Assembly: GCF_964204865.1 (NCBI RefSeq)
Contig: NC_135255.1
Location: 496,001-560,000 of the forward strand
From: Styela clava
Taxonomy: Eukaryota; Chordata; Ascidiacea; Stolidobranchia; Styelidae
Direction of reading: 5' to 3'
DNA length: 64,000 nt
The notes under the pieces were generated by a model that did not search any database, was not told the DNA's origin, and saw only the letters and a program-made list of their open reading frames with translations. Each line of letters opens with the position of its first letter. Position 1 is the first letter of the stretch. Shown here one piece after another: positions 5,601-64,000 of the stretch. Position numbers and translations under genes: made by a program.

Positions 5601-7386
5601 ACCCAATTAAAATCAAAAGAATATTTTGTTCAAAACTATATTCAACAAACAAACATTGAATTTCATTGAATCAGGACAAAATGCCACGACATGCGTGCCG
5701 CCCTTTTCTAAAGTCGGGAACTGTTAATTTTGGCACATACAATTTGTCCGTTTAAAAACCTAAGAATGGGCATTTCGTGCTTTTGAGCGATGTCTACGGA
5801 AAAAATCAAACATCAAAATATTGTAGAAAAAACAACAATCTATTTGAATAAACAAATCACTATTTTACAAATTCAACTTACAGAAGTATTGGTTGATTTT
5901 CAGGTTAAATTTCAGGGCATCTTAATTGGTCGAAAAAAAGTTTTTTATTATTTGGAATATCGCTTTAATACAGCATTGATTATCAACTGCTCGTCGTAAC
6001 GTATTGTGTTTTCATCGCTACCGTTCTACGTCGAACTACAAGTATGATAAATTACCCGTTCATTTATTGTATTTGTGTAGTTCGTGTGCGGTGTTTAAAT
6101 AACAATTATTGAAGAAGCCAAAGATCGAATCGTTGAGGCTCATTTAATATTCATATGTGGAAGAGTAAAAAAAAATTTCCTTCTGACAGATCATCATCAG
6201 CAGATATTTCGCTCGTCATTTGGGATTTCAATCTGCCATAGAATGCGTTGCAAAATTGCGTCATCAATTGAAAAAAGGGTAAGGCCTTTAAAAAAAAACC
6301 ACGTCATATACGCAATCTTGAGTTGCTACTTCATCTCAGAGTTTAGTTCTTTATATTATTGGATATGTAATGATCAACGTATAGTGGCATGTGTTTTGAT
6401 GGAAACGAACTTGATTGTTTGATGCCCCATAAATAATGCCTGGATACAAACTCACAATATTAAAAGAGTTTCCGTCTGTGACGTTAACATTATCTATTAT
6501 TATTATGATAATAAAAATGCCCGGAATTTCACTTCTAATTTGGGAGTATGAGTTCGTGTTGGTGTGTGGAACATCGTAAAAAAAGAATTGAAGCGTCAAT
6601 GTGTTAATCCGACGAATCCGACCAAATACGCCTAAGTCATGACACAGAGGTAACGAATTTATAATTCGGACGTTGGAGCTTGTGTTCATGATGATGCTTG
6701 TGAACTGAGTATTCAGCTTGTGAGCTGGTGTATTCTGGGCAAATTATAAATTTGGTAAATCAGTGTTGAAAAATAGTACTAGTTTGTGTCTCACTACGAA
6801 ATGCCACAAAATCTCTCTTCAAAATTATATGTTAAAAAGATAGCACGCTTCGCCCATGGCGACATGGACATATTTCTTCTCTCAGTGTCACATATCATGG
6901 TTTTCATTGTGTAATAATATCCATTGATTGTGTTCACTGCGTGTCATTTACAAGTACGTTTGTTCCCCACTGGCAAACGCCTCAGGGCGAATGACCCACC
7001 GCTTGCTAGTGGGCAAGTTCGGATCGCCCGAACAACTGGCATAGAGTAACATGTTTGTCAGGAATATTATCAAGAAATCATTCAACGATAAGTTTTCAAT
7101 TTGATTTTTGTTTTGTTGCAGTGGAGACATTGTCTGCTCGTGGGGGCATCTCGGTGCAGCTCACGCAAGAAACGTTCCAGATAACATTGAGCAACTTGTA
7201 CAAGCTGTGAAACCAGAAAGAGTTCTTGATACTCTCGGGGCTGGAGATACGTTCCAAGCTTCTCTGGTACATGCTAGATTAAACGGATTGGATCTCAACA
7301 GCACTGTACTGTTTGCATGTGAAGTCGCCAGCAAGAAAGTTGCTTCAATTGGGTACAACAGTGTTATCGGGTTGGGTATAAATTAG
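2698..7386 (+). CDS. ketohexokinase-like sugar kinase, copy 1 (7 exons, 322 aa)
   Basis: Exons: 2698-2801, 3648-3797, 3996-4130, 4304-4376, 4756-4908, 6190-6278, 7122-7386. All introns are GT/AG, all phases match, and the total is 969 nt including the TAG stop. The family (ketohexokinase, PfkB/ribokinase fold) phosphorylates fructose at C1 in the cytosol, using ATP. Seen here: the N-terminal beta strand with the sugar-binding Asp (VGQICADL) in exon 1; the RGGNAGN sugar-binding motif in exon 2; the TSSV / GTRTI stretch in exon 3; the KYCWIHFE strand in exon 4; and the DTLGAGDTF anion-hole and catalytic-base motif in exon 7 (Asp codon 7246-7248). Length is near the roughly 300 aa usual for the family. 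The start is the ATG at 2698, which lies directly before the family N-terminus. Oddity: in exon 5 the family VEVEKP motif reads VELELP, losing the usual Lys. Fructose as substrate is inferred from similarity; another ketose is possible. Confidence 0.93.
2886..3088. mobile_element. foldback MITE-like element in kinase copy-1 intron 1
   Basis: Arms 2894-2925 and 3049-3080 are perfect 32-bp inverted repeats. Each arm contains the word CATTTGAACCCA twice, so the arm is internally repetitive. Similarity continues weakly outward, GGTTCC on the left against GGTGACC (reverse complement) on the right. The element lies wholly inside the 846-bp first intron. Confidence 0.75.
4909..6189. other. intron 5 of kinase copy 1, no further feature
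   Basis: This 1.28-kb intron is AT-rich. The short open frames in it have no recognisable family and are not flanked by suitable splice sites. No repeat termini were identified. Confidence 0.5.
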
Positions 7387-16145: not shown

Positions 16146-29332
<13,187 letters not shown>

Positions 29333-34605: not shown

Positions 34606-34765
34606 GAACTCTAGAATCAGCTCGTTACTTGTCGATCTTGATCGGTAAGTATGTTGATAGGTATTTGTCTGTATGTCTGTGTGTTAGATGCACGAGATAT
34701 CTCACGAAAGCGAGGTTCAATCTGCTCCAAATTTTGCATGTGCATTCATCTTAGTGTAGCGTACC
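34606..34765 (+). repeat. dispersed repeat, inverted partner at 44745-44890
   Basis: Shares, in reverse complement, ATCGGTAAGTATGTTGATAG, GTATTTGTCTGT, TTAGATGCACGAGATATCTC and CAATCTGCTCCA with 44745-44890. Type unknown; it abuts the inverted repeat at 34787. Confidence 0.7.
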
Positions 34766-37321: not shown

Positions 37322-38650
37322 ATGGATAAATTCGCAAAAATGCTAACACGCAGTAAATCACGGCAAATGCAAAGTCGCGGAACGTTAGAGAGTGAATTTG
37401 AACCGTATCGACTAGTGCATGTTACTGACGAGAACATAGACTTACAGCGTGATTTCGAAAATACAATACCGGAAACGAACGCGGGTGTAGAACATAGACC
37501 TATTTCCTCTCCAAATAGATTGTCATGTTCATTAGACTCTATGGATTTGACGGAATGTAACGAAGTTAAAAATGAATTTGAAACCACTATGGGCACTCAA
37601 AAAGTAAATTTTCAACCACTGCCAAATAAAGAGCTTAACGAATATCCAAATAGATCTATAAGCACATTTACACAAACGAGAGATATTGGACAACCCACTC
37701 CAATTGGCGCAACGACATCTAGAATGTCCAGCAGTTCAGAACCGAGAGCTATATTTTACGAGAAACATCGACTTCCAATTCGAGGGCTTTGGGAGTCAGA
37801 CGTTCAAAATTGGTTCTTCTTAACAGAGCAGGAATTTATCGAGTCAGGAATTACCTTAGACTTAGAAAAGTACAAAATCGTACTGAGATGTTTAAATTCT
37901 CCACAGTTAGATCTTGTCAGAGCCAGGCTATCACCTATTGAGACCCAAAACACGTATCCAAAGCTAAAGCAGATTATACTTGATATATTCGCACCCGATA
38001 CTCGCGAAAAACTGAAGAAAATTTTTTCAGGCCAGTTACAGTTTGAAAGACCGGATGTAATTTTATAACATCTAAAGGATTCATTTATAGGGTCAGATAA
38101 AACTAATGAACAAGTACAGACACTAATCAAAAAGGTTTTTGTTTCATTGTTACCTAACTACATTGCTAATGTGTTGTATTCTGATACAAATAAATTATCT
38201 TGTGAAAACATATTGTCTAGAGCCATGCAAATCTACGATTCGTCAGAGAAACAATCAAATTATGCCTCAACTTTGCATGTGGAACACATCAGACGATAAG
38301 ACTAGTAAATTGACCGAATTGGTTACGTCTTTAGCAAAAAATGTGGACAATTTGAACAACCAAGTAAAAAACATGAACATTCAAAAATCTGACTCAAAAA
38401 TAAATCCAATCCACCGCATTAGCGCTTCAAATTATTCTAGACAGTATGTCAACCCACAAAGCAATAACAGGTACGAGTGTAGAGATTATAATTGAAATCA
38501 GTACCATCGAGAAAATTTCAACAGAAATAACTATGCTCCCAGAGAGAACGACAGGAGAGGTGATTTCAACAGAAGTAATTATGTATCTAGAAATAATGAT
38601 AGAAGAGGACTTTGTCGTTTTCTTTGGAAATTTGGCAGAAATGCAATAAA
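37322..38650 (+). pseudogene. gag region of the LTR retrotransposon, disrupted
   Basis: The first segment (37322-38068) is open for 248 codons, then meets an in-frame TAA. Coding similarity continues in the same frame to about 38300, shifts frame, and continues to about 38495 with another stop. The last segment encodes an Asn/Arg-rich tail and a Cys-rich block with a KFGRNAIKCDPPC core, similar in layout to the zinc-knuckle-like end of some retrotransposon Gag proteins. At least two stops and one frameshift mean no full Gag can be made from this copy. Confidence 0.7.
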
Positions 38651-38791
38651 ATGCGATCCACCTTGCAATTTTAATAGAAACAAGCCTTTTTTAGAAAAGG
38701 AGTAGGCGCGTTCAATAAATATAAGAGAACACGCCTACTCAAGAATACTCAAAATTCTATAAGATTACAAAAACAACATAAATGTAGTAAA

Positions 38792-40456
38792 TTGTATAAT
38801 AACGACGATACGTCGCCATCTTGTAGTGATAAATTGTTTTTTGTATATGATTATTTTTCAAATAATACTTTTCTTATCGATACTGGCTCAACCTACAGTA
38901 TATTGGATGCGAAAAAGGCAGATCAATTTAAAATTAACAACAATTCTGATAAACTAAGAGATTCAGATATACAGACAGTCGAAAATAGAAATTATAAACC
39001 TCTAGTGACAGCTAACGGAACCAAATTATCCGTTCTTGGTCACAAGCGGATTGAAATTTGCTTGTCAGCTGAGACTAAATTCATACACCAATGTATCATG
39101 GCTAATATAAATTTCGATGGCATTCTTGGTGTTGACTTTCTTTTGAAAAATAAATTGGTCGTCGACTTAGCAAATGGTTCATTGATAAATAAGTCTAATG
39201 GAGTTATTATTCCGTGTCAGAATGTTAAAATGGAACCTCCATTATCGAGTTTGCTACCTGAAACTGTAGATGAAAGATATCAGCTTTTATTAGACAAATA
39301 TCCTAACATTTTAAATCGAAAACATGCATCTCTGAGAGGTGTGAATCATAAGTTCCAACATGATATCATAACCTTCGGGCCGCCGGTTTATTCAAAACCA
39401 AGGCCGATCCCATTCAAATATAAAAAAAAAGTTGACGAAGAAATTGAGAAACTTTTAAAAAATGGTGATATTATACGCGGAACAAGTGCATACAGTATTC
39501 CAATCAACATCGTACCAAAAGGAGACAACGAGATTAGGATGTGCGTCGATTACGGGAGATTAAATCTAATTACGCGACTTCCTCGCTTCCCATTACCACG
39601 ATTGGAAAACTTCCGGTCAGAACTTTTTGGTTGCAAAGTTTTTACTAAGTTAGATCTTGAATCAGCTTATTCTAGTTTAAAAATTAACCCTTTACAACGC
39701 CACAAAGCGGCATTTTCCGTGGGTTCTTGTCATTATATACCGATCATGCTTAATTATGGCCTAAATGGTGGGGTCTCTACGTTCTCAAGATTTATGCATG
39801 AAGTCCTAATCGGAATTGAAAATGTTTTTGTTTATCTCGACGACCTACTAATTTACTGTGAAACTAAGGAGAAAAATTTAGAAATAACCGAAAAAGTATT
39901 TAAGCGGCTAAATCATTATGGCTTAACATTAAAATTAAAAAATTGTGAATTTGGAGTTTCTAAGCTTTCTTATCTAGGATACGAAGTAACAGATCAAGGA
40001 ATCAAACCACTTCCAGAAAAGGTATCAGTTATAGAAAAATTTCAACGACCTAAAACAGTAACTGAGTGTCGTAAATTCATAGGATTATGTTGCTTCTATA
40101 AAAAGCATATACCCCATTTTTCGGAGATCATAAATCCTTTGACTAAATTTGTATCAGACAAAAATCTCAAGCGTCATAAACTTAACTGGACGGGGGAATG
40201 TGAAATTGCTTTCAATAAAATAAAGCAATGCCTGTCAAATGCTTGTATGATTGCACACCCAAAAGCGGACATCCCATTATCAGTTGTATGTGATGCAAGC
40301 AACAATGCAGTGGGTGGATTTTTGACACAATTTGTAAACAACCACCAATCCAACCGAAACACTCAAACGACTGCCCCTCGTCAACCCACGGTGCAGACCA
40401 TGCCGCAAAAAAAAGGAAGGCCGACAGTGTCACAGCGCCCCCAGTGTCCTCACTGA
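38792..40456 (+). pseudogene. protease-reverse transcriptase (pol) of the LTR retrotransposon, 3' truncated
   Basis: One open frame of 554 codons. The aspartic protease active site is LIDTGSTYS near residue 30, and a second protease strand has GILGVDFL. The reverse transcriptase shows RMCVDYGRLN, KLDLESAY and the catalytic VYLDDLLIY, followed by the thumb region (GYEV, FIGLCCFYKKHIP). RNase H begins at SVVCDASNNAVGGFL and stops there. The last roughly 40 codons (Gln/Pro/Arg-rich) do not resemble RNase H and appear to be foreign sequence after a truncation near 40337. Integrase is absent. Confidence 0.85.
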
Positions 40457-41677: not shown

Positions 41678-43635
41678 TATAGTCTGACTTTGCGCAACTT
41701 ACAAAAAAACGCACAATGAAGTTTAAACTGCTTTTCCAAGTGGTAAAATTTGGTTGCGCGGACTATACGCTCCCGTGGCAATAATCTGAAAATCGGAACC
41801 CAAATTAGGGAACCCTGGCGGTATAGTGCACCGTTGGCGTCCTTGCCCTGAATCCTTTTCAAAAACATTTTCTCGACACTCGAGCCTCATACACGTAACA
41901 CGTTTACGGGTCGGTCCCAGGTAAATTGCGATATACATACGTTGGTATAAGAATTGACAGGGTTTCGGTTTGACGCTAGTCAGTTTTACTAAGGTTCACT
42001 TCTCAACTGAATGTTTTCTTCAAAGTGGGTGTGTAGACGTTGACGCCATAAAAATAGAAATTTACCCTATTCACTACGAAGTTTTGAATATGAACATCAA
42101 AAGGTAAAATAAATTATCATAGCATTGGTAGTTTATTCATACAGCATTACACTTTTTATTAGTACTCGTGTACACGAAACAAATGAATTCCAGTTTCGAA
42201 TGGGGACTTAATCGGTTACTAACAATTAATGAATTTCGCCATTTATTTCTTTGAAACATAAAGGTACGACCTGGGCTATTGTCACACTTGTTATCACGAA
42301 GTCACTTTTGATGAAGCTACAACTGATGACCAAGTTTACAAACAACATTCGATCACCAAACTTTGTTAACTATCCACAGCAGGTGGAATGAGGACGCTGT
42401 TGCGCTCTACAGGCCAGGCCCATTAACCTGAAAATAATTAGTAGCTCTGAACCAAACCCTTGGCAGGGTATCATCGTAATTTTTCCCTAGCACTACGTGC
42501 GTGCCGATACCGCGCTTCTCTAAGTCTCCAGTCAAAGCGTTTGGTTTCACCATTTGTGCAAAAACGCAATGTCAAAATAAAGATTGAAAACGACACCAAT
42601 AAAATAGACAAATAAATACTTATTTGCATTTGGAATTTGACGAATACTTCGGCCTGCACAGCAAAAAGTGGTGTTAGTTCCACAATACAGAACGAAAATT
42701 TCAAAAAACCCATGTAATGGTATCAGCATGCAAATGTTCAACTTGGCGCTTGTATGCATGCAAGCAAACCTTTTTTTGTATTAAACATTAAGAGAAACAA
42801 GCAGCGATCTGTACTCTCTAAACTTATAACGAAATATTTAAAATTGTCAACTCCGATAATTATTCTCAATTGAGTGGAGAAAAGTTTTGATCTCACGTCG
42901 ATTTGTCCAGATCTTGCATTGTTTATACGCAAGATTCCGAACCAATGGCGTGTATGGCCTGTGAACAATTATTTTTAGTTGGTGTGGCCCTCTTTTTTTT
43001 TTGAGTTGTGCATGCCTGATCTATAGCATGTTCTAAAAGAACAACGCACTGTTGATGTCATTGCGCGATTTTCAATAGGGTTATATAAGTGACAATAACT
43101 AAAAGATGGGCCCGAAATCGTTAAATATTATCTATAATTTAGGATTTGCATTAATTAATATATTTCATAGTAATTGAAGTAGTAGCAATAGTAATCATGA
43201 CGCAAACTGACAAATTCAGCCACAAAAATGACATTTTAAAATTAGAGGACAATAAAACATACCGCATAGAACAGCAATTAGTGCCAGAAGCATTCGTTAG
43301 AAATTTGAGAACATACATACCAGTACATGACATATAAAAACAACCAGCACTTCAGCAAAAACCATTGGCCAGTTATGGTTTCCTTCAACATCAAGCGCAC
43401 TCATGTAAAGCGAATAATTGGTTCAGTATTCCCATATCCGTCATCGAAAGACAAACGAACAAGACATCATGGTTTGTGGTATGACTAAGTCATCTTTGCT
43501 TCTGGACAAATACGAAATTTCTATCCTATTTGTCAACAATGTGATCACCAGCCACCTGCATCATCTGGTTACCTTGGGTTTTGGCGCTCTCGAAGTATGT
43601 GCAAAAAGATGGCGCACAACCTGAACCCTAACCTG
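41678..43635. other. non-coding stretch, nothing recognised
   Basis: Short frames on the - strand (up to about 90 codons) have no recognisable domain. No repeat termini were paired here. Confidence 0.3.
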
Positions 43636-43735
43636 GTACACATTAGAGATGTACCGATACCACCTTTGTCGCCGATACCAGCTAAAAACGCCGATACCGA
43701 TACGCCGATACTATAAGAAGGCCGATATTACCGAT

Positions 43736-44744
43736 ACTATGTAATTATTACTTAATTAGGGGTGCTGTGTAGGGCAGACGGGTTAAAACAATGGTCTTTG
43801 AGCGTTGTTCATAGTACACAATATTTCAGATCGAAAAAAAAGATATATATGTCGCATAATATGAAATTAATGTTTGGAGTTTGCTTTAACTGATTAAGAT
43901 ACGCTGTACAGTAACGCTAGTAATCTCGGTGTTCAATTAGAAAACTCATAAGCCGGGATGTCAAATTTGAATTTAATGTTAATATCGCGACCTTCGAATA
44001 TCGTTATTCGTGTTTAAAAGAATATCGAATATCACCCACATATTCTAGCGCCGCCGTCCTACGTTCAAATTAAAAGCATTTTACAAATATTGTATTTCGT
44101 GGCTATTCGTAATCGTCGACGCAATAGAGAGAGAGAGAGAGAGATTTATTTCGTCAACCAGAAAAAAACAGTCATAATAATAAAAAATAGTGGCTATAAA
44201 AAAGTACGCTTTTTTCGGTGTAGACTGGAAGGAGCGATACGACCATGCGGTCATCGAAGTCAGCCCCCTCCAAGTTTACGCTGATAAATTCACAGTAAAA
44301 TAAGATTATTAGAAATGGTTGAAGTTCACGACACAAAATTTGAAAAAACAAACAAAAAAATGAAGTAAATAAAAGTAATTAATTTTTTTTCCGTGAAATC
44401 AATTTTTAAATGATGAGATTTGAAAGTGAGGAGTAAGACCCACAAATTAAAAAAAAACAATTTTGGCTATTGGACTACTATACTCAATGTAGATTTGGAC
44501 GCAAGGAGCCAGCCTTACATGTACGAATGAATTTCAGGAGATAAACAACATGGTACTCATGTAAAACAATTGGTTCAAGAGAGGAATCAACCTTCCAACG
44601 AGAATATCGGTCAGAGACCGAGGACTTATCGATCAAAAGTCAGGGGATCCCCCAAAAAAGCGCTCTTACTCCATAGTGACAACTTGTGTCCCATCACTAT
44701 TGATTAATAACTCGCTAATTATACGATATACTTCGCCCAAAATC
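43736..44744. other. unclassified interior of the composite element
   Basis: AT-rich, with a (GA)n run at about 44126-44144. No coding signal. Confidence 0.3.
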
Positions 44745-44890
44745 AATAGGCTTCTGGTCCGAGATATGATGAATGCACATGAAAAATCTGGAGCAGATTC
44801 GATCTCGTTTTCGTGAGATATCGCGTGCATCTAACAGACAGACAGACAAATACCTATCAACATACTTACCGATTAAAATCGATAAGTAAC
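44745..44890 (-). repeat. inverted partner of the repeat at 34606-34765
   Basis: Carries GAGATATCGCGTGCATCTAA, ACAGACAGACAGACAAATAC and TATCAACATACTTACCGATT in reverse orientation to 34606-34765. Confidence 0.7.
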
Positions 44891-45129
44891 AAGAAAAATT
44901 TATGGCAAATAGGTGACTGAAAAAATATTATATACCCCAATTAAGAAACAATTTTGGTAAACATACGATCGATAGTCATATATATAAATACAATTTAGGT
45001 TGAATAACTATTATTAGTAAGCCTTTCAAACAAGACAACAACTGTGGCCTATTAAAAACTTAAACCCAATATTTAAATAGGTAAACGATGACTATTATTT
45101 TGAGCAGCAATAAATCAGCCTGACAAATA

Positions 45130-46610
45130 AAAGGCAGTTTTTGCAAATATACAAGTAGCCCTCATATATAAGTGGAAAATTGGATAAATAAACATTATTT
45201 GAAGTAGCGAGGGTCAACCTCTCAAAAAAAACGAAAGATTTTACAAATGCACAAAATGTTTCTCAATATAAAGAATATGGATGAATTTATGATGTGAAGG
45301 AAAGGCAGTTTTTGCAAATACTCAATATAAAAATATGGATAAATAAACTATTATTCAAATCAACAAGAGTTCAGCCTCAATATTAGATGGCAGTTATTGC
45401 AAATAGACAAAGTAGTACTCAATATATGAATATGGATAAATAAACTATCATTCAAATCAGCAAGAGTTCAGCTGCAATATTAGATGGCAGTTATTGCAAA
45501 TAGACAAAGTAGTACTCAATATATGAATAAATATAAATAAACTATTATACAATTCAGCAAGGGTTAGCCTCAATATTAGATGGCAGTTATTGCAAATGCA
45601 CAAATAAACTCAATATATGAATATGGATAAATAAACTATCATTCAAATCAGCAAGAGTTCAGCTGCAATATTAGATGGCAGTTATTGCAAATAGACAAAG
45701 TAGTACTCAATATATGAATAAATATAAATAAACTATTATACAATTCAGCAAGGGTTAGCCTCAATATTAGATGGCAGTTATTGCAAATGCACAAATAAAC
45801 TCAATATATGAATATGGATAAATAAACTATCATTCAAATCAGCAAGAGTTCAGCTGCAATATTAGATGGAAGTTATTGCAAATAGACAAAGTAGTACTCA
45901 ATATATGAATAAATATAAATAAACTATTATACAATTCAGCAAGGGTTAGCCTCAATATTAGATGGCAGTTATTGCAAGTGCACAAATAAACTCAATATAT
46001 GGATAAATAAACTATCATTCAAATCAGCAAGAGTTCAGCTGCAATATTAGATGGCAGTTATTGCAAATGCACAAATAGTACTCAATATATAAGTATGGAT
46101 AAATAAATTATTATTCAAATCAGCAAGAGTTCAGCTGCAATATTAGATGGCAGTTATTGCAAATAGACAAAGTAATACTCAATATATGAATGAATATAAA
46201 TAAACTATTACTCAAATCAGCAAGGGTTCAGCCTTAATATTAGATGGCAGTTATTGCAAATCCACAACAAGTACTCAATATGTAAATATGGATAAATAAA
46301 ATATTATCCAAATTCACAACGGTTCAGCCTCAAAATTAAGGCAGTCAGTTATTGCAAATACACAAGTAGTAATCAATATATGAATATGAATAAATTAACT
46401 ATTATTTCAAACAGCAAGGTTCATCCCCGCAAAAAATGCATTTTTGGCATAAAAAAACAAATAGTTTGCAATATATATTTGGATAAAAAAAACTATTATT
46501 TAATTCAGCAAGGTTGCAGCCTCAAAATCGGATGACAGTATTGCAAATGCACAAATAGTACTCAATATATGAATATGGATAAATAAACTATTATTCCAAT
46601 CAGCAGACTG
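45130..46610 (+). repeat. satellite-like tandem array with 191-bp higher-order period
   Basis: About 14 or more copies of a roughly 95-bp unit containing AATATTAGATGGCAGTTATT, GCAAATAGACAAAGTAGTAC, TCAATATATGAATATGG and AAATCAGCAAGAGTTCAGC. In the centre, two alternating monomer types form a dimer repeated at exactly 191 bp: the marker CAATTCAGCAAGGGTTAGCC begins at 45550, 45741 and 45932. Units at both edges are shorter and more diverged, as expected when unequal exchange homogenises the middle. Confidence 0.9.
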
Positions 46611-47672
46611 TGTGTGTCTGTTTAGCCCTGTCTACAGATGAGAAAACGAAGTTCCTACTTCCTCCGACAGATGGGCCAATATAGGAGAAGAGATCACCCT
46701 TACATTCAATTTATATTAATTTAGATAGATATGGTAGTGCAAACATAATTCATCAATGGGAAAATTAAAAGTGCAAGAGAAACAACAGTTTGTTGTTTTG
46801 AATTTCATCACAAATTTAATGAAACATTATATGGATTTGTGAGTCACGATAAAGGATACAATTGCAAAATAATTCATATTTTTGACTTAGAAAGGCAACT
46901 ATTTACGTTACATGTCAAACCACAAAATAGAAATGTGAAAGAAATTATATCTACAGTTGACAAATCTATGTGGGCATGATTGATAAAGTGCCATAGTACA
47001 ATACTAGGTTACAAAAAAATATATATTTGTGTAAATAATAAACAAGAATAATGAACTAGGGGGACTGCAAGTACAAAAATGATATTTAACAGTAAAGTAC
47101 CATCAATGTCTTAAAAATAAAAATATAAGTGCCAGTGGGCATTTGCAACGCCAAATTTGACATGGATAAATGAGTTGTATGTACAAAAAGCAATACTCGT
47201 ATACTGAACTTATCATGGAAGCAATTTAAGTTTTAATAATTGGAACAGAATGATCTAATAGATTAATATTTAGTAGAATGCAACGATATACCAATTGAGC
47301 TCAACCATGAATTCTAATAGGCAGATATCCACATATCCATTACTGCTGAGGAAGCCAGAGTGACTCTCGAAAATCCATAAAATTGTGACATTTTTGGAAA
47401 GAAGTAGTCGGATGATAACAGAAACTATGGGGGTAGGTTTGCAGATGAAAAAAGATGTAGCACTATGAAACATGACTATTATAGTTGGAGTAGATTTCTA
47501 TTTGGCAAGCACAAGGAGAACTTTGAAAAGGCCAGTAACGGTGAACGAAGGCCCTGCTATATTATCTAATATTAACTGAGATAAGGTATTACCGGTAAAT
47601 AGTGCAAACGAATTCATAAATAGCACAGTGGCCATGCTATATAGAACAACAAATTGTGATAAACTAATACAT
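46611..47672. other. sequence between the satellite array and LINE ORF2 stop
   Basis: Presumably includes the 3' UTR of the - strand LINE, but no poly(A)- or microsatellite-type tail marking its 3' end was found, so the LINE/flank boundary is unknown. Confidence 0.4.
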
Positions 47673-50600
47673 TCAGTATTTATCGATTAGATGTTGCATA
47701 TATTTATATTTGAAAGTGCTATAGGATGATTCTATAATATCGGTGGGAATGCTATTCCATATACTTGGACCCATATTTTTAATGGAATTGTGGGATACAC
47801 TTGAGGTAGTCCTGTTGACAAAATAGGCACCTTTACTTGCTAGACGAGTGTTATGTCCATGGACTTCACTACAACTAGTAAAATAGCTGTTGAAAACTTC
47901 TGGCAACATACCGTGATTGAACTGAAACATCACTTTAGCTATTTCAAATTTATATACGTCTTCAAGTTTTAAAATGTTTAGTTGTTTATATACTGGACTG
48001 AGGCGTTGTCTCAAACATGAGCCACTCATTAGCCTCAAAGCGCGGTTTTGGAGCACAGTAATTCTTCTGAGATAAGTCTGATATGCTGAGCCCCATGCCA
48101 CAATTCCATATTGTAGGTGCGAGTAAAACAAAGCAAAATAAACGGATCGCAATATCTTTTTTGGTACGAAATGCCTTAATTTGGTCATTGCGCCAATAGT
48201 TCTTGACAACCTGCCTGCAAGAAGGTCTAAATGCATGTGCCAGTTTAAGTTATTGTCGAGAATGACTCCAAGGTACTTAACGGAGTCACAGGTATTCAGT
48301 ATTGTGTTATTTAAGATAAATTTTGGGGTGAATTTTGAGTTTCTTAGGTTTCTGTTACAATTTATCAACAGGACTTGTGTCTTTTGAGCGTTAACAGTGA
48401 GCTTGTTTTTAGTAAGCCATTCTGATAAATTATGTAAATCCCCGTTAACCCTTTTTTCCAAGGCGGTCAGATTTTTTGCAGTGGACGTATTGCTGGTGTC
48501 ATCGGCAAAAAGTTTGGTTAAGGATTCTGTAGCATTCACAACATCATTTATGTGGATAAGGAACAAAGTGGGACCGAGTACAGAGCCCTGAGGGACCCCA
48601 ACAGATAGTCTTTCTTTTGTTGATTCAAAACCAGACAAATACACAAACTGACTTCTATCCTGAAGGTAACTTTTAAACAACTTATTTGCAATTCCACGAA
48701 TTCCATAGTGATTTAATTTCCTAACTAGAATATTATGATCGACAGTATCAAATGCCTTTTTGAGATCCAAAAAGACACTACAACCTAGTAAATTCTCTTC
48801 TATAATATTATAGTATTGGCTAACAATATCTAAAATCGCGTGTGATGTGCTATGTCCATTTCTAAAACCAAACTGGTCAATATTCAAGATTGAGTTTTTA
48901 TCAAGAAAAGATTTGAGTCGCTTGAGTAGTAATTTTTCAAAAATAATAGAAATGCAGGGAAGTATTGATATGGGGCGATAATTAGATACGACCTCTTTAT
49001 TCCCGGATTTGTATACAGGTACCACCCTGGCAACTTTTAAATGATTGGGATAGATTCCCAGAGTCATAGAGGTGTTAAAAAGTTTGCTTATAATTGGGCT
49101 AATAACGGGCTTCAGTATTTTAATTAGATAGACTGGAATCCGGTCGTAGCCTTCTGCTTTGCCATTTGCAAGTGAGTTGATAATCATTTCAATTTCTGGT
49201 GTTGTAATTTCCTCAAGAAACATTGATGATTTATTAGGTCGACTAAGGTATTCGAGAAAATCATAACTATTGTGATTAGAAAAAGTTGATGCAAGCTTTG
49301 GCCCAATTTTAGAAAAATAATTGTTGAACATATTGCAAATGTCAATTGGATCTTGAGTTGATTTATTACAATAATCATCACGCAGTGTGCCGGGATAAGA
49401 TTTTTTACTTCTCCGGTTAATAATTGAATTAATGGTATTCCATGTCATTTTAGGGTCTTTTTTATGTTTATCGAAACAATTGGCATAGTAATTCTCTTTA
49501 GCTCTAATCTTAATGTGAGAGAGAGTGTTCGAGTATTTTTTGTACTGGCGCTTTTCAGACTCAGTGCCATTTAAAAATAATGATTTGTGTAATTTATTCC
49601 GAATTTTAGCAGAGCGCAATATACCTGGGGTAATCCAGGGCTTCTGTTTTAATCGTCGTTCTTTTCTAGTTAATTTTTTTAAAGGGGCATGCTTATTAAT
49701 AAGATTACTCAATTTTAGGACAAATTCATCAAAAATTATGTTAAAGTTATGAGCCTCAATTTCTGAACTTGAACCTTCATTACTGAAGATAATTTGAGCA
49801 TCAATTAGAAACTGTTCAACATTGAAATTTACCATATCTCGCTTCAATTCTGGCACATGCTTGGGGGGTTCAAGTTTCAGGTCAATCTGGCAAAAAATAG
49901 GGCAGTGGTCTGTCAGAGTGTCTTGTAGAACAAATGGTCTCATATTTTTATCAATAATATTAGTATAAATATGATCTAGTAAATTCGCAGTACTACCGGT
50001 CACTCTGGTAGGAAGCGTAATCAATGGAATTGTGGCATGGGACCGCAGCATCTCCAGGTATTGCTTTGTAAAGGTGGTGTTTGCATTAAGATTAATGTTC
50101 ATGTCACCAATAATAAAAAACTTTCTTTTATCTTGGGCTAAATTGTGCAAGGTCTGTTTCAACTTGCTAGAAAACTCATTGTGATCCGAATTGGGATGTC
50201 GATAAATTATACCAAGGGTTAGTAAGTAGGGTTTAGCAGCTCCTATAGAAATTTCAGCCCACAGTTCCTCACATCCGACCACATCTAGTTTATATTCGTC
50301 AATAAAGTTTGGAGAAAAGCATGATTTCAGATATAATCCAACGCCACCAGCATTTGTATTAGATGGTGTGTGGTAGAAGTCATACCCTTCTAAGTCAATA
50401 TTGGCCACAGGATCAGATTTTAATTTAGTTTCAGATATTGCAATGAATGATGGGGCCGAATTTAAATCATATATAAGTTTGGACAATTCATCAATATTTT
50501 TTTGGATAGATCGAATATTAACATGTGCTAAAATAGTTGGATATTTTTCAAATTGAGTGAAAGTGGTTAACGCATTGTTTCGATCATTTAAGAGAACACA

Positions 50601-50864
50601 GTTTTTAGCATTTCCAAAGTCAAAATCATCATTATTTAGGACATTACATACCGGTAATACTTCCTCATCAGTAAACTTGAGGCTATCAAGAAAAGGCAAT
50701 GGATTTGAGCATGTACAGCAGTAGTATGCTGCTCCAAACATTTTTTTGGAATGGTTTTCAGAATTATAACATAAACTATGAGTTCTAGAATCACAGATAC
50801 TACAGAAAATAAAGTTTTCTATGCATGGCTCTTTACACACCGAACAGGAATATAAGGAAGCCAT
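47673..50864 (-). CDS. LINE ORF2: endonuclease-reverse transcriptase, intact (1063 aa)
   Basis: Single uninterrupted frame. The N-terminus has a Cys/His-rich zinc finger resembling a PHD or RING fold (CSVCKEPC, CSICDSRTH, CCTC). An APE-type endonuclease follows (HVNIRSI, ISETKL, GGVGLYL, IGDMNINL, TDHCPIF). The reverse transcriptase shows NYRPISILP, QFGFRNGHST, FLDLKKAFDTVDH, GVPQGSVLGPTLF and the catalytic LFADDT. The C-terminal region has KYLGVILD and a WNSIPTDI-type tail. No RNase H is seen. The layout fits the CR1/L2/jockey group; the exact clade is not resolved. It would nick and reverse-transcribe its own RNA at the target site. An unbroken frame of this length suggests recent activity. 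Confidence 0.93.
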   Translation of the reverse strand: MASLYSCSVCKEPCIENFIFCSICDSRTHSLCYNSENHSKKMFGAAYYCCTCSNPLPFLDSLKFTDEEVLPVCNVLNNDDFDFGNAKNCVLLNDRNNALTTFTQFEKYPTILAHVNIRSIQKNIDELSKLIYDLNSAPSFIAISETKLKSDPVANIDLEGYDFYHTPSNTNAGGVGLYLKSCFSPNFIDEYKLDVVGCEELWAEISIGAAKPYLLTLGIIYRHPNSDHNEFSSKLKQTLHNLAQDKRKFFIIGDMNINLNANTTFTKQYLEMLRSHATIPLITLPTRVTGSTANLLDHIYTNIIDKNMRPFVLQDTLTDHCPIFCQIDLKLEPPKHVPELKRDMVNFNVEQFLIDAQIIFSNEGSSSEIEAHNFNIIFDEFVLKLSNLINKHAPLKKLTRKERRLKQKPWITPGILRSAKIRNKLHKSLFLNGTESEKRQYKKYSNTLSHIKIRAKENYYANCFDKHKKDPKMTWNTINSIINRRSKKSYPGTLRDDYCNKSTQDPIDICNMFNNYFSKIGPKLASTFSNHNSYDFLEYLSRPNKSSMFLEEITTPEIEMIINSLANGKAEGYDRIPVYLIKILKPVISPIISKLFNTSMTLGIYPNHLKVARVVPVYKSGNKEVVSNYRPISILPCISIIFEKLLLKRLKSFLDKNSILNIDQFGFRNGHSTSHAILDIVSQYYNIIEENLLGCSVFLDLKKAFDTVDHNILVRKLNHYGIRGIANKLFKSYLQDRSQFVYLSGFESTKERLSVGVPQGSVLGPTLFLIHINDVVNATESLTKLFADDTSNTSTAKNLTALEKRVNGDLHNLSEWLTKNKLTVNAQKTQVLLINCNRNLRNSKFTPKFILNNTILNTCDSVKYLGVILDNNLNWHMHLDLLAGRLSRTIGAMTKLRHFVPKKILRSVYFALFYSHLQYGIVAWGSAYQTYLRRITVLQNRALRLMSGSCLRQRLSPVYKQLNILKLEDVYKFEIAKVMFQFNHGMLPEVFNSYFTSCSEVHGHNTRLASKGAYFVNRTTSSVSHNSIKNMGPSIWNSIPTDIIESSYSTFKYKYMQHLIDKY

Positions 50865-50912
50865 TATATATCATAAAAAATAAAAATAAATAGTAAACTC
50901 ACTTAGAATTGT

Positions 50913-51851
50913 TTATTTCAGATTTTCGATGTCGGCTAACTTTCTAATTGGAACTCTCGGGGCATCTTTATTCTTCCGCATGTAAATGTTACCATTAGTG
51001 GTCCAGAGTCGTTCGTATTTGTTATCCTTTTTCGACATACGAGCAGTATATAGTAAATTGTTCCTGTAATCGGTTAAGTTTTCATTTATGTAAAGAGATT
51101 TCATGCCAGGTATTCCAAAACTTGCTATGCTGGATGTAGAACGCTTTTTGTCAATGAATTCATTTCTCTTATTCCTGTTGGTGAATCTAACGATGATCGG
51201 TGGGATTTTAGATTTGTCTCGTCGGAGCAGTCTATGGGATACAGATATGTCCAGTCTCTCCACATTAATATTCAACAGTTTGCCAATTTTAATGATGATT
51301 TCATCAGTTTTTTCACCCTCTTTGTATGGAATACCGTGAAATTCAATATTTTCACGTCTTACATATTGTGCTAGATCTTCGAGGTCCTTGTCGAATCTAT
51401 TTTGGAGGGCAGAAACTAAAGCTTTAAGAGCATTATTGGAGGCTGATAGCTCTTCGACTTTTTTGTGAAGATCATTTAAATGGCTTTTTTGAATTTCAAA
51501 GTCTGCACTGATAAAATCCTGACTTGCTTTCACAGCCTGAACATCATGTTGGAGAGTAGAGTTAACAACATGAATACCATTTAAATCTTCGACAAGAGAA
51601 TCCACTTTGCTCATCATGGCATCACTCTGATGAAACATGGCTTCCAATCGTTCAGTTATTAGCTGGGTATTATTTAAAACGGATTCATCTATCAGGGTTG
51701 TCATTTTTTTATCATGTTCATTAATGGAGTCTTCAAGCAGGTCTTTAATGCTTTCTTCAACAATGGCTTTGATCTCGATTTTTAGGTTATTGGTGATCCT
51801 TGCTTCCATCAGGTCCAACTTGTGTTTGAGTTCATCAATTTTCTTGTCCAT
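50913..51851 (-). CDS. LINE ORF1: coiled-coil RNA-binding protein (312 aa)
   Basis: Starts at an ATG and ends 48 bp before ORF2. Residues from about 5 to 160 are heptad-rich (many Leu/Ile/Val with Lys/Glu), predicting a long coiled coil. The following block (VRRENIEFHGIP to VSHRLLRRDKSKIPPIIVRF) resembles the RRM-like region of L1- and CR1-type ORF1 proteins, which trimerise and coat the element RNA. The gene is uninterrupted. Functional assignment rests on layout and position before ORF2. Confidence 0.85.
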   Translation of the reverse strand: MDKKIDELKHKLDLMEARITNNLKIEIKAIVEESIKDLLEDSINEHDKKMTTLIDESVLNNTQLITERLEAMFHQSDAMMSKVDSLVEDLNGIHVVNSTLQHDVQAVKASQDFISADFEIQKSHLNDLHKKVEELSASNNALKALVSALQNRFDKDLEDLAQYVRRENIEFHGIPYKEGEKTDEIIIKIGKLLNINVERLDISVSHRLLRRDKSKIPPIIVRFTNRNKRNEFIDKKRSTSSIASFGIPGMKSLYINENLTDYRNNLLYTARMSKKDNKYERLWTTNGNIYMRKNKDAPRVPIRKLADIENLK

Positions 51852-52016
51852 GATTTCAAATAATTGTTTAAGAACTAACCAGTAATTTAGAATAAATATC
51901 TGTGAACTTAATCAAATAGCGAATAATGTCAATAAGTCAAAGGCAACATGAATAAAGAATATCAATCAGCACCAACAAAAGGAAGGCCTACCTATAACCG
52001 TCGAGGAGGTTTTTTT

Positions 52017-52046
52017 AGTAAAAATAACATGATCTCTTCCAACGAA
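52017..52046 (+). repeat. single arm related to the hairpin at 1971-2072
   Basis: TAAAAATAACATGATCTCTT followed by CCAACGAAAT matches one arm of the hairpin with one or two substitutions. No inverted second arm is nearby. Confidence 0.6.
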
Positions 52047-52675
52047 ATAGATTTTATAATATTTTACAATTGCAATCATCAATCAATTTTATTCGGTCAC
52101 TCTGATACAAACAAAACACAAAACAACAACAAAGGGACAAACAAAATACAGAGGACCTGGACCTATTTTGAGACAGTCTAGGGCTAGGCGGTCATGTCAA
52201 TATATCTATAAAGTAGTTGTGTAGTTAAACAAAATTAATACCTGCGTGGAGAGATAATTGTGTCAGAATTTAGTTTATCGATGTCGACGGACTAAATGAC
52301 ACTCGTACTTGACGACAAACAGTCAGAATTTATACCCGTGCCAAAAGTCTATGTGCAGTTAATAAGGAACCCAATTCCACTGTATGATTTAAAACCGGGC
52401 GCCTGATTGCTTTTTGTTATGTGCTGTGTTGATATATTTCTTCATAATTACTATGTAATATTAAAAATGTCAATATAAAAATTTGACAGCGAAAATATCT
52501 AAATTAGTTGAACTAGTTTGGCTGGTAAATAGCTAAAAACACGTGAATATTCTCTCACGGGGTGGGAACTAGTATGGCTCATAGCTCACAATCTCTCCAG
52601 ACAAAAAATAAATTAAAAAGTAGTATTCCAACTAATCTTTTAAAACATTTTGGACCATATCAAAAAGGTAAATAT
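52047..52675. other. unclassified right interior of the composite element
   Basis: No coding or repeat assignment; it may include the 5' flank of the LINE insertion. Confidence 0.3.
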
Positions 52676-52999
52676 ATCGGAAATATCGGCCTTAATCTAA
52701 CCGATACCGATACATGGCCGATACCGAAAAAATGGCCGATATTGCCGATGCCGATACCCGATACATCTCTAGTACACATACTTCAAGAGGTCTTGGGTTT
52801 TTGTAATCTGTGCGAGTAAACACCAGAAACCCCTGAAATCAAAGTATTTTGTTGCTGTTCCAGATCTGGCAATTGTGATTTCTATGTGAGAGATACCTCT
52901 ATGTGAATGGTACCGTATGGAATATCAAAAGCTTCTACGCCTTTCTGCTGAGTTTCTGGCCTAAAATCTTTTTTCACAAACAATAATCGCTAATTGTTT

Positions 53000-55916
53000 T
53001 CAAATGGGAGGTTTGAATCCCTTCATATGATCAAAACCACAATTTGATATTTTCTTTTCCGCTACTCTGCATCCAAATTGAACACTCTTATCCAAGGGAT
53101 GCCCTTGTGATCTTGCATGGATCACTCCTGCAATAAAAGAATCACCAGCTCCGATTGTGTCAACAACTCTATCGGGTGGAATGGCAGGTACCATAGTAGA
53201 AACATCCCCAACTGTATTTATTCCAAATGCTGCACCAGAACTTCCCCATGTACACACAATTTCTGTCCTGAAATAGCAAGAATAATGATTAAGACATGTT
53301 GAAGAATGGAGATCAATAGAGTACCGGTATACACTTTCCTCCCCCAATTTTATGTGTAAAAATCTACATTGTTAAAATATCATAAAATACTGGTAGGCTA
53401 AAAAAGTGGAATGAGATAGACACAAAGATGTGAAGAATGTAACCAACATCTGCATTTTGAACTACTGTTTAGTATAATCAGCAGGCTTACAACAGCCCTG
53501 TTTTTTGAGATCCTATATATATGTATATATTCTATTTATATTCCATATTCCAATATTGGCATGCATAAAAGTGTTGACCGTTCTTAGTAGCACACTCTCA
53601 CAGTGTATAAATAAGCAAAAAAAAAATACATTCAACACTTACCCGTTTGAAACCATATTCTTTATTCCTTCAACACATTCTATGGCGGTTGTGTAACCCA
53701 AGAATTTAGCATAATCAGTACTAACAAAAACCTGTAGAAAAGATGTAGTTTGTTAACTTACCAAGAATTATTAAATTGGGAGAGTCACATAAAATAATTA
53801 GCTATTCTCTTCATATCATTCAAAATAACCTTGTACAAATATTTATTATGAGTCTACAGTAGCCTATATCATTATAACTGGTCCAATACAAAATTGCAGG
53901 ATAGTTTCAGCTCTTGTAACAGTTTGTCTCTTTTCTGATTTAAAATTGGAAGAATGCATCTCTAATGCATTTACACGCACATACCAAATCAGCCAGCTTT
54001 GCGATGCTAAACAAATTAGTCACGTGGGGTTTTTCTAATTCAACAGACATACTAATTTTCTCAGTTTCAGATCTGCTTTCATTGTAATCAACAATCATAT
54101 TCATGGCAGAAATAATGACATCAATGTTGGGTCGACCCTGTGAATGGAATGATCTCACCATTAATATAAGTGAAAAAATATCAAACATTGTTGCACATTT
54201 GTATAACATGCAGATTTTCACATTGAGACATGTGAATCCAACAGACGAACAGTAAAAAGTACTACATTTTCATTTAGTATTTGACAGAATAAATGATCCA
54301 AAGCGGGCCTAATATTTGTGGTGATAGGTTGAAAAAATTATTTGGCGAGCAACTATGACTCATCTTTATATAAAATTTGAGCATTTGCCTGAACTCGACT
54401 GATTTGAAATTTTTTGAAAGAAGCGGTGAAATTTGTAGATAAATCAGAACTTGGTGTGCGGATGCCATCAGTTGTCTGGCTAAATTTTGTTATTTTGAAA
54501 TAAGAGCAAGAAGCCAGCCCTATGAATTATAAGCAGCTATGATACAAAATTGGATATGCATAAAACCAAGTCTTTGCAATCTAATTTCCCCAGGCTCATA
54601 TTCATGATTTTATCCTTGTTTCATGATTATTGAAGAAAGCCTAAATTTTGCTGGAAACTAGATACATGAAATGTCCCAACCATATAAATATGAGAATGAA
54701 AGCAATACAAACCTCAAAGTGAAACCATGCATGATCTCCCAGATCCAAATTTTGGAAAGCTTCAACATTTAATTCTGGAAGATCTCTGTAAAATTATATA
54801 ATGTTAAAACATAAAACCAATGTTACTCTGCCAAACATAAAGATAACAAACGGATCAGACACATTCTAATGAAAAATTTGAAAAAATTGTGTGCCTCATG
54901 TAAAGTAATATTGTATGATGTTTTCTAGAAGATTTGTTCTTGGAAAATACAAATACATTGGGCATCAATTATTGCAAAAAGTACAGAAGTATGTACCCTC
55001 TAAAATGCATTATTGTCCTTGAACCATTTTGTTTATTCACAATAACAGAAGAAGTTGGAAAATCTACGCAATCCCAGTGATGAACATCACTAATATCAAC
55101 ACCATATTTTTCCAACCCCTGCAAAGCAAATCTGAAAAACAAAAATTCTGATTTCAATAATTTCAACAGTTGTTAATTGACTTATAAGAATATACATTTT
55201 CAATATTGTGTACGAAAAATTCACGCCATTTTATGACTGTGAACAAATCCCAAAACTTTCTACACATAAAAAAGGCACTGCCTCGCATACATAATTTTAA
55301 ATCAAAGTTGCCATATATAGAAATATTTATATCTAAAACCTCTCTTGACCTTTTACAAAATGATAAATACAAAAATGAACGAATGTAACATGCAATAGAA
55401 AAGTAGAAGTGGAGCATTTACCTAGAGGCATCAAGACCCCAAGGCAAATCATCACTATTCATAGTTGGTGCACTTCCAATAAATTTTGTTTTGGACCCAA
55501 GAATGGAAAGTACAGTACAAGTATTGGCTGCATTACCTCCTCTTTGCCAATAGAGCGACAGTGATCTGTTCAACAAGAAGGTTAAAAAATTTATTACAGG
55601 CCAATGCGCATATGAACAGAGATAAAAATTAATTGAAAGATGGAAATGAAAATTCAAGGATAGGATTTACATATTTATCCCGGAGGAGAGGAAAGTTGAT
55701 AAGCTGGCTCAAGCAAATGACGAATGTCTCGTCCTGTTATCAGTCCAGTCCAGGTCAGGTATGGGATTAGGAATTTTGAGAACCCACAAATCATAAATTT
55801 TCAGACCTCTGATCACTATCTTCTGAAGGAAATTTCGAACAAGTATTCACTATATCGACACACACGAGGCCAACACATGCGACAAATCCCGTCAAACTCG
55901 TCTTAGAATCTTCCAT
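53000..55916 (-). CDS. ketohexokinase-like sugar kinase, copy 2 (7 exons, 323 aa)
   Basis: Exons in transcript order: 55916-55807, 55565-55422, 55131-54997, 54785-54713, 54137-53985, 53731-53643, 53267-53000 (TGA). All introns are GT/AG with compatible phases, 972 nt in total. Exons 3-6 have exactly the lengths of those in copy 1 (135, 73, 153, 89 nt). Motifs: [12 protein letters not shown] with the sugar-binding Asp, [35 protein letters not shown] (the Lys kept, unlike copy 1) and DTIGAGDSF (Asp codon 53143-53141). It is closer to the vertebrate ketohexokinase pattern than copy 1, so the more conservative fructokinase candidate. Transcribed toward the composite element whose border lies about 220 bp past the stop. 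Confidence 0.93.
55655..55760 (+). repeat. truncated dispersed short repeat in kinase copy-2 intron 1
   Basis: GGATAGGATTTACATATTTA then CCCGGAGGAGAGGAAAG and TCTCGTCCTGTTATCAGTCC match the first third of the 56268-56600 copy. It lies entirely within the intron 55566-55806. Confidence 0.7.
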
Positions 55917-63785: not shown

Positions 63786-63908
63786 ATGTTGTTTAATGTC
63801 ATTGGTGGGGACAACACTAAAAGGCTGAAGGAAGAAACGGATGAAGTGGAGGAAAAACGGAAGTTCTTCCGACGAATAATGAGGTGGTTGAAGTCACTAA
63901 AAAGATGA
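63786..63908 (+). CDS. small ORF, 40 aa with cationic C-terminus (unrecognised)
   Basis: ATG at 63786, TGA at 63906. The first half is acidic/mixed and the last 17 residues (KRKFFRRIMRWLKSLKR) are strongly basic with hydrophobics spaced 3-4 apart, so they could form an amphipathic helix. It may be a last exon or a chance frame. The right half lies in a 72-bp direct repeat. No function is claimed. Confidence 0.2.
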   Translation: MLFNVIGGDNTKRLKEETDEVEEKRKFFRRIMRWLKSLKR

Positions 63909-64000
63909 ACACTAAAAGGAAGAAGTAGGTGAAATTTCTTCCGACGAATAATGAGGTGGTTGAAGTCACTAAAAAGATGAACACTAAAAGGAAGAAGTGG
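63864..64000 (+). repeat. 72-bp tandem repeat at the window edge
   Basis: TTCTTCCGACGAATAATGAG begins at 63864 and again at 63936, and about 60 bp after each start are identical. The array may continue beyond the window. Confidence 0.8.

Follow-up and report, generated by a model that had tools for sequence, protein, structure and literature searches.

Here we report the structure of a 9.1-kb composite of transposable elements in the ascidian Styela clava, which occupies positions 43644-52771 of a 64,000-bp stretch of the genome (C6:496001-560000; this whole stretch is called the window below, and all positions refer to it). The composite consists of the two parts of a putatively non-autonomous DNA transposon of the hAT superfamily, separated by a single long interspersed nuclear element (LINE) whose 3' untranslated region (UTR) includes a tandem satellite array. 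Both borders and the interior were compared with relatives in the same genome (376.6 Mb). The composite is almost certainly an ordinary nested insertion, in which a LINE entered a short hAT element and brought the satellite with it. The two elements and their target site duplications are arranged as follows.

43636-43643, no strand assigned: left copy of the hAT target site duplication (GTACACAT), by exact sequence match.
43644-44126, no strand assigned: left part of the putatively non-autonomous hAT element, aligned to 20 of 20 relatives and ending in one 5-base copy of the LINE duplication.
44122-44126, no strand assigned: left copy of the LINE target site duplication (CAATA), by empty-site comparison.
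44127-51929, minus strand: LINE insertion of 7803 bp, by junction searches and empty sites.
51930-51934, no strand assigned: right copy of the LINE target site duplication (CAATA), by empty-site comparison.
51930-52771, no strand assigned: right part of the putatively non-autonomous hAT element, by alignment of the relatives and the right-junction search.
52772-52779, no strand assigned: right copy of the hAT target site duplication (GTACACAT), by exact sequence match.

The left end of the outer element, TAGAGATGTACCGATACC, starts exactly at 43644, and the perfect 8-bp direct duplication GTACACAT lies at 43636-43643 and 52772-52779, so that the hAT-type borders at 43644 and 52771 proposed in an earlier note on this DNA are exact on both sides. 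The inverted ends described there are real, with a perfect match over 10 bp (TAGAGATGTA) from the tip and a single mismatch within 13 bp; they are not 18-bp inverted copies, and no second copy of the 18-mer end was found in the window even with up to three mismatches. The ends of hAT elements follow the consensus motif YAGNG, and this element has short terminal inverted repeats of that type, starting with TAGAG, together with subterminal GCCGATACC motifs. As the note also stated, nothing like a hAT transposase was seen among the four ATG-initiated open reading frames (ORFs) of at least 80 amino acids that overlap the element, which are the two LINE ORFs, covered by the Pfam scan, and two frames of 81-82 amino acids.

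When the left end was searched against the genome, 40 of 817 candidate matches were scored, and 20 of the 39 outside the window were fetched, 10 kb each. In all 20 relatives, sequence matching the left part of the window copy is followed by pieces matching its right part. Both ends were found in 17 of them, at lengths of 901-1299 bp and with perfect 8-bp duplications of their own, the duplication length of the hAT superfamily; in the remaining three (L011, L016, and L019) the right end was not located in place. The 7.8-kb interior was found in none of the 20. Since these short relatives carry their own duplications, the family is one of short non-autonomous hAT elements, of which the window copy is one enlarged member. 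The two borders had been claimed to be inserted as one event, and the match of both parts to one element in every fetched relative bears this out. Enlargement in place, for which the note had suggested a search for short copies elsewhere as the check, is likewise supported by the 17 short relatives, by the absence of the interior from all 20, and by junctions that are unique among the scored matches. The element resembles the non-autonomous hATs of the Ac/Ds type, which are similar to miniature inverted-repeat transposable elements, in its TAGAGATG-type ends, 8-bp duplications, subterminal motifs, and the lack of a visible transposase frame; it differs from them in nothing essential, being split by the LINE.

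Two further observations concern the hAT family. About 84 bp of the right part of the window copy (52080-52163) is unmatched in the 20 fetched relatives. The fetched stretch L012 contains, at 5533-6106 (reversed), a second copy of the same family, which is shorter, more diverged, and located about 4 kb from the first.

The interior of the composite, 44127-51929, is one minus-strand LINE of 7803 bp between two copies of CAATA. The block begins on the plus strand with (GA)n, and the LINE accordingly has its 3' end, (TC)n, at 44127 and its 5' end at 51929. At the corresponding empty site, CAATA is present once in 14 of the 20 hAT relatives, CAACA in four, and TAATA in one, and the stretch is missing in one (L017). 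The left-junction query, with the junction at query base 127/128, gave 54 matches (40 scored of 1203 candidates), of which only the window's own reaches into the hAT element; the other 53 matches listed start at or after base 123, 38 of them at bases 123-137. Among the best 40 of 433 candidates for the right junction, one spans it, again the window itself, while seven are LINE matches ending at or before base 430 and 32 are hAT matches starting at 430/431. Because the junction queries switch from hAT to LINE at one point, both LINE borders are exact, and among the scored matches the combination of hAT and LINE is unique to the window copy. Within the LINE the following parts were recognized.

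44127-44379, minus strand: 3' tail of the LINE, which terminates in (TC)n and is predicted to form a stem-loop, by copy alignment and folding.
44597-44897, minus strand: dispersed repeat of about 300 bp inside the 3' UTR of the window LINE's lineage (lineage A), by repeat comparison.
45319-46605, minus strand: tandem satellite within the LINE 3' UTR, which tandem-repeat analysis resolves into 13.5 units of about 97 bp or, counted as 191-bp dimers, into 6.7.
46606-47672, minus strand: 3' UTR stretch between the satellite and ORF2, matched in lineage A copies L029 and L031 and unmatched in the three lineage B copies examined.
47673-50864, minus strand: LINE ORF2, open, 1063 amino acids, with endonuclease and reverse transcriptase, by the ORF list, Pfam, and structure matches by sequence.
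50913-51851, minus strand: LINE ORF1, open, 312 amino acids, by the ORF list.

The assignment to the LINEs follows from the endonuclease and reverse transcriptase of ORF2, which has Pfam matches to PF03372 (2.4e-06) and PF00078 (1.5e-32) and matches L1 and R2 structures by sequence, as well as from the 3' end common to the 38 of 53 left-junction matches, the CAATA duplication, and the presence of 5'-shortened copies such as L031, which begins at ORF2 residue 414. The 3' UTR is 3.5 kb long. Its repeat of about 300 bp occurs in all three lineage A copies examined and also at 34621-34750 of the window and in L013 and L026.

The satellite array at 45319-46605 continues as degenerate units to about 45061. 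Three of its 191-bp dimers are almost identical, a sign that the array grew recently. The LINE copies on C19 (L029) and C10 (L031) are 99-100% alike to the window LINE over 1.5 kb beside the array and carry an array in the same place, with 9.5 and 8.5 units, respectively, against 13.5 units in the window. Because these close relatives share the position of the array, the satellite is a part of the LINE's own 3' UTR. The earlier note was thus right to see a satellite and an intact LINE, with ORF1 and ORF2 both open, in the interior; treating them as two separate items was not, as the satellite lies in the 3' UTR of that same LINE.

The satellite query, run with a search that passes over very common words, returned 51 rows that merge into 29 places. 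According to the search tables, 17 of these, the window included, adjoin LINE matches in the same orientation, seven on both sides, three on the ORF2 side only, and seven on the tail side only. Seven of the other 12 places were fetched, and five of them (L034, L035, L037, L039, and L040) have LINE 3' UTR, tail, or ORF2 sequence beside the array, in L037 and L039 as UTR pieces only. LINE sequence therefore lies beside the array at 22 of the 29 places, with two places without it and five not fetched, at C13:14337680, C18:19578959, C2:20305453, C6:14558690, and C6:21744180. The two without it, L036 and L041, are copies of one another, sharing two segments of about 1.4 kb at 98.6% and 93.8% identity; they contain unit hits of the same family, six (five full) in one and three (two full) in the other.

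Two other classes of repeats were considered and rejected for the satellite. A classical free-standing satellite forms long arrays; here the matched lengths at the 29 places range from 83 to 1790 bp, with 22 places beside a LINE. Retrozymes are hammerhead-bearing repeats with a self-cleaving ribozyme in the repeat unit (PMC7229834); an Rfam scan of 43600-52800 was empty at E up to 1, giving neither a hammerhead nor any other listed RNA family.

We propose the following order of events. A non-autonomous hAT element of about 1.3 kb, belonging to a large family, inserted first, as seen in its 8-bp duplication. Later, one LINE was copied into it on the minus strand, leaving the CAATA duplication and the (TC)n tail; this anatomy is observed, and target-primed reverse transcription is the presumed mechanism by analogy with known LINE biology. 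The satellite arrived within the LINE's own 3' UTR, as the LINE's relatives show. Slippage in reverse transcription or unequal exchange probably shifts the array length between close LINE copies, and retrotransposition may then scatter short arrays over the genome, as the distribution of the array places suggests.

The ages of the two insertions bear on this order. The hAT alignment was built from the 17 relatives in which both ends are present, and private differences were counted for eight copies, namely the window copy and seven of these relatives in which the sequence adjoining the LINE site is preserved. In the window hAT they number 15 over 1227 columns (1.2%); the other seven copies have 0.08%-1.4%. 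The window LINE differs from the C19 copy in 39 of 6376 columns outside the array (0.6%), unevenly, with 14 of 3192 in ORF2 (synonymous divergence 0.009) and 7 of 296 in the 300-bp repeat, and two other LINE copies match the window with 100% identity along the final 466-470 bp. By these figures the LINE seems the younger of the two insertions, in favour of insertion in place and against a later movement of the whole block.

The earlier note had alternatively suggested that the composite moves as a large carrier, in which case the LINE would have entered the hAT element elsewhere and the whole block would have been cut and pasted here later. The ends and the 8-bp duplication are intact, and no second copy need remain after cut and paste. 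However, among the scored matches no other locus spans either junction (one of 54 and one of 40, both being the window), and the private change of the hAT exceeds the difference between the LINE and its C19 copy, rough as both measures are; we consider a carrier very unlikely. That hAT elements of this family normally contain the satellite, another possibility raised earlier, draws on its position between the hAT ends in the window copy alone and is scarcely credible, as the array is absent from all 20 fetched hAT copies and lies beside a LINE at most of its places. Equally implausible is that the two ends are separate insertions resembling one element: their inverted match is perfect over 10 bp only, but they share a perfect 8-bp duplication, and both parts match one element in 20 of 20 copies, with perfect duplications in 17.

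Several points weigh against the nested insertion or limit the argument for it. The hAT inspection covered 20 of the 39 other scored matches, themselves from a set of 40 scored among 817 candidates. Both age measures are coarse, given the spread of hAT private differences (0.08%-1.4%) and the unevenness of the C19 LINE copy, and a single later move by cut and paste could have gone unseen. At the C19 copy no clear target duplication was read, and it lacks the first 13 bases of the window LINE. The arrays of L036 and L041 have no ORF2 or tail match in the fetched flanks, and not every array is shown to be LINE-borne.

The 3' tail was compared among the LINE copies. Its core (alignment columns 101-173) has 5 variable positions of 73 among six lineage A and B copies, and 17 of 73 when a lineage C copy is added. 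In the consensus fold of seven tails, a 12-pair stem spans columns 110-156 and has a 6-pair hairpin inside it. Some changes are one-sided, some pairs are broken in the C copy, no two-sided change was seen, and the covariation term is unfavourable; the single-strand tail folds better than its shuffles (z -2.6, with 1 of 200 shuffles equally good). A hairpin structure of the tail is therefore predicted as likely, without proof by covariation. In LINEs of the stringent type, said in the available part of PMC4176376 to be the majority, the encoded reverse transcriptase recognises a specific 3' tail, and conservation of the tail is expected for this reason. The window LINE resembles these elements, as far as that part of the source describes them, in its ORF2 with endonuclease and reverse transcriptase, its conserved 3' tail with a predicted stem-loop, and its short-repeat 3' end, and adds to them a 1.3-kb tandem array between ORF2 and the tail, in a 3.5-kb 3' UTR. 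Conservation of the array, unlike that of the tail, is not expected.

Lineage B, represented by L030, L032, and L033, is 63-71% alike to the window LINE in ORF2 protein over the parts that each copy retains. Between L030 and the window LINE, over 670 codons, the synonymous proportion is 0.71 and the nonsynonymous divergence (dN) 0.195, and 97 of 160 four-fold sites differ (61%, where chance pairing would give 71%), including 22 of 29 in the last 134 codons. The satellites of A and B are nevertheless 78-79% alike and their 3' tails 85-87%; two of the three B copies share a block of 56 bp with A at 93%, while further 3' UTR stretches are 71-79% alike and others unmatched. In four B-like places the array begins 60 bp past the end of the ORF2 match. 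The units of the more distant copies L034 and L035, the latter about 62% alike in ORF2 protein over 128 residues, are about 70% alike.

The monomers were cut by nhmmer, in place of a fixed-anchor monomer consensus that was biased towards its anchor; hits shorter than about 80 model positions were dropped, which left 108 monomers at 14 loci. When each monomer was compared with those of other loci, its closest match was of lineage A for 34 of the 36 A monomers (untyped for two) and of lineage B for all 50 B monomers. The 13 C monomers sort uncleanly, with nearest neighbours from C in four cases, untyped loci in five, and A and B in two each. Mean likeness within A (0.77-0.83) is no closer than that between A and B (0.77-0.80), and it is higher within B (0.84-0.88). 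With synonymous sites near saturation and arrays still 78-79% alike, the array sequence has changed slowly compared with the ORF2 synonymous sites, which reflects either constraint or 3' ends of A and B that are younger than their ORFs.

The latter alternative has something close to an even chance. The array would be a passenger, and the likeness of the A and B 3' UTRs would come from exchange of 3' ends after the divergence of the ORFs, not from function. Divergence between L030 and the window changes abruptly at the ORF2 stop, from 61% at four-fold sites, with the 22 of 29 close to the stop, to 13% in the tail; such a step is what an old transfer would leave. The UTR stretch at 46606-47672 is present in A copies and in none of the three B copies. 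On the other side, A and B monomers sort by lineage, and therefore any exchange must be old; the A-B similarity is patchy, so that a single block transfer would need later loss; and the more distant copies also carry arrays, though their monomers sort uncleanly. Patchy similarity and lineage sorting speak against a recent transfer. Constraint leads to a more tentative proposal, namely that the 95-97-bp array might be a working part of the 3' UTR, for example a multi-site platform on which the ORF1 protein binds or the retrotransposition particle assembles. If this doubtful but possible function were real, selection would keep the array through LINE lineages near synonymous saturation, while the number of units drifts from copy to copy.

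Elsewhere in the window, a minus-strand exon at 53000-53371, some 0.2 kb beyond the hAT end, encodes part of a PfkB-family kinase that resembles ketohexokinase. Pieces of a USP7-like gene with MATH, ubiquitin hydrolase, and ICP0-binding domains lie at 16922-22685, and the coding region of a Gypsy-like long terminal repeat (LTR) retrotransposon at 37322-40456, where the segment 38678-40456 matches reverse transcriptase and RNase H. A perfect tandem repeat of 72 bp in 1.9 copies is found at the window edge (63864-63998).

Links between satellites and retrotransposons have been reviewed before. In the sections available to us, the review PMC9659126 describes the pea Ogre LTR retrotransposons, in which hypervariable tandem repeats of the 3' UTR gave rise to the satellite PisTR-A. 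The likeness to the present case lies in the tandem repeats of a retrotransposon 3' UTR; Ogre, however, is by the same account a plant LTR element, whereas here the element is a LINE, the arrays are short (the longest matched place is 1790 bp), and the unit family occurs in several LINE lineages. Those sections also relate satellites to parts of LINEs, namely a cetacean satellite to the L1 3' end and the chicken HinfI satellite to CR1. These share the LINE-satellite link with our case and, as described there, resemble a piece of a LINE, whereas here the array is still inside the LINEs. Among the titles and abstract openings listed, in a search with subscription journals mostly outside it, none described a family of LINEs whose 3' UTR contains a long and conserved internal satellite.

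What is new is modest: in this LINE lineage the 3' UTR has retained a tandem array of 95-97-bp units over a long time. The apparent giant hAT carrier is removed, and the locus illustrates that nested insertions may be misread when the outer duplication is perfect. In its place stands a clear example of a satellite family housed mainly within one kind of LINE, in arrays whose length differs between close copies. It makes testable whether the 3' UTR arrays of LINEs are passengers or parts, and how short satellite seeds scatter over chromosomes.

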